This document shows, one piece after another, positions 34,079 through 36,499 of a DNA stretch of 64,000 nt. The DNA lies in the NCBI GenBank assembly GCA_905479075.1, contig CAJQLA010000006.1, positions 1 through 64,000 on the forward strand. Reading direction: 5' to 3'. The notes beneath the pieces were generated by a model. That model ran no database searches. It was not told the origin of the DNA and worked only from the letters and a program-made list of their open reading frames with translations. Numbering within the stretch: position 1 is the stretch's first letter; every line of letters begins with the position of its first letter. A program made the translations under genes and the position numbers. The stretch is from an uncultured Gammaproteobacteria bacterium. Lineage in GTDB: Bacteria > Pseudomonadota > Gammaproteobacteria > Nitrosococcales > Methylophagaceae.

Positions 34079-34114
34079 GTCCTGTATAAATACCTAATAA
34101 AACAGATCATAAGC

Positions 34115-34309
34115 TGTGGATATCTTTGCTTGTGGATAAGTAGCAATGTTATCCACAGGTATAATTAACTAATCACTTGTAGTTATCCACAATTTAAAAA
34201 ATGATAACTCATTATAAAACAGCTTAAAAATAGACTTATCAAGTTACTAACAGGAAATAATCATTAACATTATTTATCTTTTAAATACTTTATATTAATA
34301 ATTGATGAA
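34115..34309. other. Cluster of four DnaA-box-like sites beside an AT-rich stretch (candidate DnaA-binding or origin-like element)
   Basis: Nine-base sites lie at 34115-34123 (minus-strand orientation, one mismatch), 34131-34139 (minus, exact), 34149-34157 (plus, exact) and 34183-34191 (plus, exact). The consensus is TTATCCACA. The 120 bases following (34191-34310) contain only 19 G or C by hand count. DnaA boxes plus an AT-rich unwinding-like stretch is the arrangement of an origin. However, dnaA, dnaN and mnmG are not adjacent, and highly expressed genes to the left run on the plus strand, which does not support oriC here. A titration site or control of priA are alternatives. Confidence 0.6.
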
Positions 34310-36499
34310 ATGAATTTAATTATTAAAGTTGCCATTCCTGGGCCATTAAGACAATGTTTTGACTATTACAGCAAAGAATGTAATCTTAATTGGCAACAGG
34401 GCATGCGTGTGTCCGTTCCTTTTGGTTCTCGAAAATTAATAGGTTTTGTTCTCGCAATAACAAAGGTTGAAAATAATGTTGATTTAAAATCATTGAAAGC
34501 CATAGAAAAAAGACTTGATGATAAACAACTTATTCCTCAATCAATTATCGATCTCATTCTTTGGACTAGTGACTATTACCACCATCCGATCGGTGATTGT
34601 TTTCAAGTTGCTTTACCTAAATTTATTAGTAATGGTAAGCAATCACAGATCAACCAAGAAATATTTTGGGTATTGTGTTCTGACATTAATAACGAACAAA
34701 ACTTAGGTAAAAAACAACAAAGCATTATTAAGTTTTTAAAAAGCAAGCCTAGTAATAAAGCTCGTCAAACCGAATTATTCACTCATCTTGGTCAATGTCG
34801 CAGTTCCTTATTAAGTCTTGAAAAAAAAGGTTTAATAGAACAACAGCAAGGTATCAAACAGGATGATATAAATAGCCAAATATCTGATGCTATTTCATTA
34901 AATGATGAACAGCAGCAAGCTGTTGATACAGTATGGAAAGACGATCAAAAATTTTCACCTTTTTTATTACAAGGTATTACCGGTAGTGGTAAAACAGAAG
35001 TTTATATCCACCTAGCTAAAAAAGTATTAGCTGAAAATAAACAAGTTTTGATTTTAATACCAGAAATTGGCTTAACCGAACAGTTTGTACAGCGCTTTAA
35101 ACAAAAGCTATCAGCTCATATTGTTGTTTTAAATTCATCGATCTCAGATAAAGAACGAACACAAGCTTGGTTATTAGCTAATGAAGGATTAGCCCAAATA
35201 GTCATTGGAACACGTTCTGCTGTTTTTACCCCGTTGCCAAACCTTGGTTTAATCATCATCGATGAAGAACATGACAGCTCCTATAAACAGCAAGATAGCT
35301 TGAGATATCATGCAAGAACTGTTGCTTTAGTAAGAGCAAAAAAACAACAAATACCCATCGTATTAGGAAGTGCAACACCATCAATAGAAACCCTTCATCA
35401 TAGCCAGAAACAGCGTTACCAAATTCTAAAACTCAGTAAGCGAGCAACGGGTGCAAATCTGCCAAAAATTCGTTTAATTAATAGTAATGGCCCTAAAGCA
35501 GCAGATGCTCTTTCAAGTGAGTTATTCAAAGCTATTAAAGCCGAAATTACAGCCAATAACCAAGTTTTGTTGTTTATTAATCGACGTGGTTATGCACCTG
35601 TATTAATGTGTCATCAATGTAGTTGGCAAGCGAACTGTCAACATTGTGATGCTAAGATGATTGTCCATCAACATCGATATCAATTACGTTGCCACCACTG
35701 CGGTGCTGTACAAAACCTGCTCACACAATGTCCATCCTGTTCATCAGCTGACTTAACAACTTACGGTGCAGGAACGCAGCAAATCGAACAAAAATTACAA
35801 GGCTATTTTCCTGAGGCCAGGATATTAAGAATTGATAAAGACAGTACCCAAAGGGTCGGTGCATTTGAAAAAATTGTGAACGAAATACAGCAAGGGGGTG
35901 CAAAGATATTAGTAGGTACTCAAATGTTAGCAAAAGGTCACGACTTTCATGATGTCACTTTAGTCGGTGTGTTAGATGCCGATCAAGGATTATTCAGTGC
36001 GGATTTTAGAGCAACAGAGTCCTTGGCACAGTTAATCACACAAGTCACAGGTAGAGCAGGTAGAGGCAAAAAACCAGGTACGGTCTATATTCAAACTAGT
36101 CAAGTTGATCACCCATTTTGGAAAAATATGATCGAGCATGATTATGACAGTGCTGCCAAAAAGTTATTACAGGAAAGAAGTGACTTAGAAATGCCACCTT
36201 ATGGCTCGCTTTGTGTTATTCGATCCCGCGCTAAAGAACAAGAAATATCGATGCAATTTTTGATGGATGTTGCTGAGATATTAAGACAAACAGAACAGCA
36301 AGATGTGCTTATTTTAGGGCCGGTACCAGCAATAATGGAAAAACGAGCGGGCTATTTTCGATCGCAATTATTATTAACAAGCAAAAATAGAAAACGGCTA
36401 CATCAGTTACTGGATCATCATATTGATCAAATAAGTGCGTTAAAACAAATAAGAAAACTCAAATGGTCAATTGATATTGATCCAATCGATTTACTCTAG
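34310..36499 (+). CDS. priA: Primosomal replication-restart helicase PriA, 729 aa
   Basis: An N-terminal 3'-DNA-end binding domain (about 1-105) is followed by a superfamily 2 helicase core with GITGSGKTE (Walker A near 222), IIDEEHDSSYKQ (motif II near 320) and GSATPS (motif III). The zinc-binding block CHQCSWQANCQHC...CHHCG...CPSC spans about 440-480. VGTQMLAKGHDF and QVTGRAGRG are motifs V and VI. PriA reloads the replisome at stalled forks. It starts at ATG 34310, directly after the AT-rich stretch and DnaA-box cluster. Complete, normal length. Confidence 0.97.
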   Translation: MNLIIKVAIPGPLRQCFDYYSKECNLNWQQGMRVSVPFGSRKLIGFVLAITKVENNVDLKSLKAIEKRLDDKQLIPQSIIDLILWTSDYYHHPIGDCFQVALPKFISNGKQSQINQEIFWVLCSDINNEQNLGKKQQSIIKFLKSKPSNKARQTELFTHLGQCRSSLLSLEKKGLIEQQQGIKQDDINSQISDAISLNDEQQQAVDTVWKDDQKFSPFLLQGITGSGKTEVYIHLAKKVLAENKQVLILIPEIGLTEQFVQRFKQKLSAHIVVLNSSISDKERTQAWLLANEGLAQIVIGTRSAVFTPLPNLGLIIIDEEHDSSYKQQDSLRYHARTVALVRAKKQQIPIVLGSATPSIETLHHSQKQRYQILKLSKRATGANLPKIRLINSNGPKAADALSSELFKAIKAEITANNQVLLFINRRGYAPVLMCHQCSWQANCQHCDAKMIVHQHRYQLRCHHCGAVQNLLTQCPSCSSADLTTYGAGTQQIEQKLQGYFPEARILRIDKDSTQRVGAFEKIVNEIQQGGAKILVGTQMLAKGHDFHDVTLVGVLDADQGLFSADFRATESLAQLITQVTGRAGRGKKPGTVYIQTSQVDHPFWKNMIEHDYDSAAKKLLQERSDLEMPPYGSLCVIRSRAKEQEISMQFLMDVAEILRQTEQQDVLILGPVPAIMEKRAGYFRSQLLLTSKNRKRLHQLLDHHIDQISALKQIRKLKWSIDIDPIDLL

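Follow-up and report, generated by a model that had tools for sequence, protein, structure and literature searches.

The chromosomal origin of Escherichia coli, oriC, lies between gidA and mioC rather than adjacent to dnaA, and combines DnaA boxes in both orientations with a one-sided AT-rich unwinding region that carries 13-mer-like elements. The site described here, immediately upstream of priA in an uncultured, methylotrophic gammaproteobacterium of the family Methylophagaceae, shares these features and is likewise not adjacent to dnaA, but differs from E. coli oriC in its neighbor, in the order and spacing of its boxes, in having a triplet tract and ATCTTTTAAAT in place of the GATCT 13-mers, and in that no convincing IHF site was found, an IHF consensus scan returning 1-mismatch matches only. 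The basal unwinding module of bacterial origins has been defined as a box, a spacer and trios, with 3'-GAT-5' as the trio consensus and a central adenine as the general pattern (PMC8287927), and origin predictors take dnaA as their default landmark (PMC10225481). In the literature searched, DoriC lying outside it, we found no origin described for Methylophaga and none linked to priA. From the composition and conservation of the sequence, the region upstream of priA is very probably the chromosomal oriC of the source bacterium and of its family.

The window, a 64 kb (64,000-nucleotide) stretch of DNA, is part of contig C6 of the source genome (1.92 Mb, 23 contigs). The proposed oriC comprises the whole intergenic region between a Na/Pi transporter gene and priA (34079-34309, + strand), a delimitation drawn from the boxes, the AT-rich stretch, conservation in the family and the third-codon-position (GC3) switch of relatives. 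The priA gene itself, encoding the replication restart helicase or primosomal protein N' (34310-36499, + strand, with an ATG start), matches TIGR00595 (606 bits) and NF004067 above cut-off. Four DnaA boxes, three exact and one a near match, stand within 77 bp (34115-34191), exactly where the sequence-only reading had placed them: box 1 (34115-34123, - strand) is the near match, ATATCCACA, one mismatch from the TTATCCACA of most relatives, and boxes 2 (34131-34139, - strand), 3 (34149-34157, + strand) and 4 (34183-34191, + strand) are exact TTATCCACA, the last often TTATCAACA in aligned relatives. Boxes 1 to 3 form a 43-bp module, TGTGGATAA-N7-TGTGGATAA-N9-TTATCCACA, that box 3 closes and that occurs once in the source genome. 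To their left is a flank of spaced ATAA motifs (GTATAA...ATAAAA...GATCATAAG; 34079-34113, + strand) with a putative function suggested by the family alignment, in which the columns ATAA.....GTATAA......ATAAa....ATcATAA are kept. To the right, an AT-rich stretch (34192-34309, 83% AT) reaches the priA start and is by its composition a candidate DNA unwinding element and likely priA promoter region. It has 20 G/C in its 118 bases, and the lowest-G+C 120-base windows of the whole 64 kb (19-20 G/C) fall on it, bearing out the earlier count of 19 in 120. Inside it the family alignment places a degenerate tandem box 5/6 (TTATCAAGT / TTACTAACA, three mismatches each; 34236-34252, + strand), which reads TTATCCACATATCCACAGGCA or near it in many relatives, then a triplet tract, AATCATTAACATTATTT (34259-34275, + strand; ATCATCAACATCA is kept in relatives), beside the tandem boxes in a DnaA-trio-like position, and the 13-mer-like AT element ATCTTTTAAAT (34276-34286, + strand). 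Folded as a single strand, the region shows nothing out of the ordinary (z -1.4).

It is the clustering of the boxes, not their count, that constitutes the signal, since the window holds 22 box sites with 0-1 mismatch when 19.6 are expected. Exact TTATCCACA occurs 34 times in the source genome, and the cluster upstream of priA is the sole place where three exact boxes lie within 61 bp. About 2e-5 such triples are expected in the source genome by chance, so that the earlier suspicion of a density beyond chance was well founded.

The arrangement is a property of the family. Among the genomes compared, which are mostly drafts, the three-box module (allowing up to 3 mismatches) occurs once or twice in each of 32 of 36 family genomes and in none of six order-mates, which we take to be Nitrosococcaceae; a reversed control pattern gave zero matches. 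Upstream sequence is complete for 29 family priA loci, and in every one of them two minus-strand boxes are followed by two plus-strand boxes, as a rule about 190, 174, 156 and 122 bp ahead of the priA start. The family alignment shows further conserved blocks: the ATAA motifs on the left, TTATCCACATATCCACAGGCA as a tandem box near -60, then ATCATCAACATCA and, immediately ahead of priA, ATCTTTTAAAT. The source keeps the triplets and ATCTTTTAAAT, with a degraded tandem box. One family member, G029 (1.1 Mb, listed as 100% complete), lacks the origin module and also any PriA scoring above cut-off.

We hypothesize that DnaA would bind boxes 1-4 and the weaker tandem boxes 5/6, from which it could spread to the triplet tract and melt the AT-rich stretch containing that tract and the ATCTTTTAAAT element; DnaB would then be loaded at the opened stretch and two forks would leave. 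Judged by a trio criterion of 3'-GAT-5' (or, in general, at least three NAN) within 16 bp of a box, the family triplet tract is rightly placed and agrees with NAN over three steps, though its own triplet is 3'-TAG-5'.

In six relatives there is a complete second element downstream of priA (G001, locus L020; G006, L014; G007, L029; G009, L021; G020, L040; G028, L025), situated between priA and argS, 74-246 bp past the priA stop codon and in the same orientation. These second copies share the boxes, the tandem box, the triplets and a ATCTTTTAAA-like element, with the sequence between motifs diverged, and thereby reveal which motifs selection has kept: boxes, triplet tract and ATCTTTTAAAT. In G033 an extra copy lies immediately upstream of the first, and the source genome has no second copy. 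The arrangement in the six relatives resembles the bipartite origins of Helicobacter and Bacillus subtilis, where box regions also flank a replication gene, but here the flanked gene is priA and not dnaA, and both copies look complete in boxes, triplets and AT element. A full copy kept downstream of priA is also hard to reconcile with conservation of a priA operator alone.

Strand composition was followed by strand-aware GC3 skew, taken from sequence stretches and not from whole chromosomes. By binomial-likelihood change-point analysis, in which likelihood differences overstate precision because the test takes genes as homogeneous, the switch falls on the priA-upstream intergenic region in both G018 (528545-528847, LLR 490, with no rival position within 5 lnL) and G034 (362642-362928, LLR 149). 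On both contigs, sparsely sampled, the skew has opposite signs across hundreds of kb on either side. In G018, none of the genes examined in the 18 kb left of the site has a positive third-position skew (all are zero or negative), and to its right 11 of 12 are positive and one is zero. Plain skew also changes sign at the priA-upstream site in G033 and G007.

Synteny with G018 places contigs C8 and C6 of the source genome head to head; read on a common strand, the skew is negative in C8 and positive in the right part of C6. The switch zone spans 28-47 kb of C6 with the cluster inside it, and the best change-point, in a part where genes vary widely, is at 45-47 kb, some 11 kb further right than the cluster. 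Skew, whose whole-genome form had been suggested as a check on the origin, here places the best change-point exactly at the priA-upstream site in G018 and G034 and about 11 kb away from it in the source. It could be that the origin of this species lies at 45-47 kb and that the priA cluster is a relic, a reading to which the weaker box 1 and boxes 5/6 of the source, degraded relative to those of relatives, also lend something. We consider this extremely improbable: there is no DnaA-box cluster at 44-50 kb of the source contig, G018 has no switch at the syntenic position, and three exact boxes are retained at priA. With the same overstatement of precision, the cluster fits 13.9 lnL worse than the best point, and a switch at dnaA 443 lnL worse (200 vs 643).

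Gene direction had been raised as an objection to an origin here, and 26 of the 29 genes to the left of the cluster (window positions 1-34078), the his cluster included, are indeed on the + strand, against a leftward fork. The objection does not hold, as these genes still have the third-codon skew expected for that arm. Plus-strand genes of the source contig alone flip sign, from -0.16 left of the cluster to +0.08 to +0.21 right of it, so that the change is not caused by gene direction, and G018 keeps the same left-side arrangement (23 of 25 genes against the leftward fork). Raw GC skew of the window alone was discarded as a misleading guide: with almost every gene left of the cluster on the + strand, it comes out weakly positive on that side.

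The location of dnaA, another check that had been suggested, points the same way. Where examined in the family, dnaA is far from the cluster and lacks both boxes and a skew switch: there is no DnaA-box cluster in the dnaA region of the source genome or of G018, the dnaA-dnaN region shows no switch, and dnaA and the module are 73-211 kb apart where dnaA and priA share a contig, with recF and gyrB on the opposite arm from dnaA-dnaN. A dnaA-linked oriC for the family, whether at dnaA-dnaN or at rpmH-dnaA, was accordingly rejected. Partitioning sites give a further landmark, parS in the origin region being usual and not obligatory. In the four genomes searched at up to one mismatch (the source, G018, G034 and G035) there are one or two parS-like sites each, all 12-75 kb from the module. 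The sole two of the source genome (G000:C8:13007-13022 and C6:108853-108868) lie 47 kb from it, across the C8-C6 join with the gap ignored, and 75 kb from it; those of G018 are 40-41 kb away, on both sides; and those of G034 and G035 are 12-13 kb from the module as against 150-226 kb from dnaA. The exact parS-like site of the source genome immediately precedes gyrB, on the arm opposite to dnaA.

Boxes before priA are not peculiar to this family. In a set of 80 named PriA loci, some 20 from other lineages have DnaA boxes before priA in another layout (including L104-L112, L116, L131, L134, L135, L137, L147, L149, L160, L172, L174 and L177), in which TTATGCACA or a similar box usually precedes a TTATCCACA-N5-TGTGGRTAA pair by about 165-190 bp, and these boxes probably form a DnaA-responsive priA element. 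Cycloclasticus, Methylomonas, Methylobacter and others resemble the family in having boxes about 90-190 bp before priA, and differ from it in the layout TTATGCACA ... TTATCCACA-N5-TGTGGRTAA. The boxes of the family might then be mere DnaA-responsive control of priA, or a DnaA titration site, with the origin elsewhere. The skew of Cycloclasticus (G407) indeed changes over at dnaA, at about 30 kb, rather than at its priA boxes, at 364 kb, and in G166 skew is unchanged across the priA boxes, so that such boxes alone do not mean an origin; the skew of G324 is too weak to inform. Within the family, in contrast, it is the boxes rather than dnaA that coincide with the skew switch, parS sites are near the boxes, and six species have the complete second copy downstream of priA, for which reasons we regard an origin elsewhere as very improbable. 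The betaproteobacterium Pseudogulbenkiania also has boxes upstream of priA, in a partial form.

Of 369 gammaproteobacterial genomes, 173 carry the inverted pair TTATCCACA-N5-TGTGGRTAA (reversed controls: zero), but the pair precedes several different genes, priA in some, and is thus not an origin marker by itself. It has 0 matches in the source genome, where the layout of the putative DnaA-regulated priA promoters found elsewhere was accordingly not seen. A strict two-box pattern run against the same number of gammaproteobacterial genomes (369) matched one family member, a lone match because few family members are in the sample and no mismatch was allowed.

Of the three functions that the sequence-only reading had left open, oriC is thus the one strongly supported, because of the skew switch of relatives, a family-wide module unique in the genome, nearby parS and the lack of any such signal at dnaA. 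Computationally, the site unites an intergenic box cluster, an adjoining AT-rich region, a composition switch that is exact in two relatives, and parS nearby. A titration locus of the datA type, with boxes away from the origin, was rejected, as the boxes coincide with the skew switch of relatives. Control of priA by DnaA may coexist with origin function: the AT-rich stretch, which probably contains the priA promoter, ends at the priA start codon, and many members of the class have DnaA boxes ahead of priA. A promoter scan of the region, by contrast, found weak matches and no good sigma-70 match on the priA strand. That priA transcription is in addition governed, through oriC, by DnaA and initiation timing is a real possibility to which we give somewhat less than an even chance, and one compatible with the oriC reading rather than a replacement for it.

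If the region upstream of priA is oriC, the origin of the family apparently moved there from the dnaA region, its location in order-mates. The dnaA-dnaN origins of the order-mates G036, G040 and G041 share a DnaA-box cluster with the family site but differ from it in being 3' of dnaA and in having many boxes at 11-12 bp spacing; in G040 the skew switches at this dnaA-linked cluster, and none of the order-mates examined has a box cluster at priA. The move may perhaps have been onto a locus already bound by DnaA. It is tempting to speculate that an ancestral DnaA-binding control element of priA became the origin, that the dnaA-linked origin was lost, and that the new origin was later copied across priA in several species, with two modules maybe acting together, though this history is tentative and rather doubtful: the layouts differ and order-mates have no boxes at priA, so that descent of the family layout from the other gammaproteobacterial layout is not shown. 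Order-mates with the origin at dnaA, distant gammaproteobacteria with non-origin boxes at priA, and a family whose origin is very probably at priA together make natural material on how origins move, and the likely origin can be located across the family with a precision of about 200 bp, at a distance from dnaA.

The C6 sequence from about 58 to 84 kb is without counterpart in the otherwise collinear chromosome of G018, bar a match at 65.6-66.1 kb, and may be an insertion. At 60-62 kb of C6 the G+C is locally higher, at 0.50.
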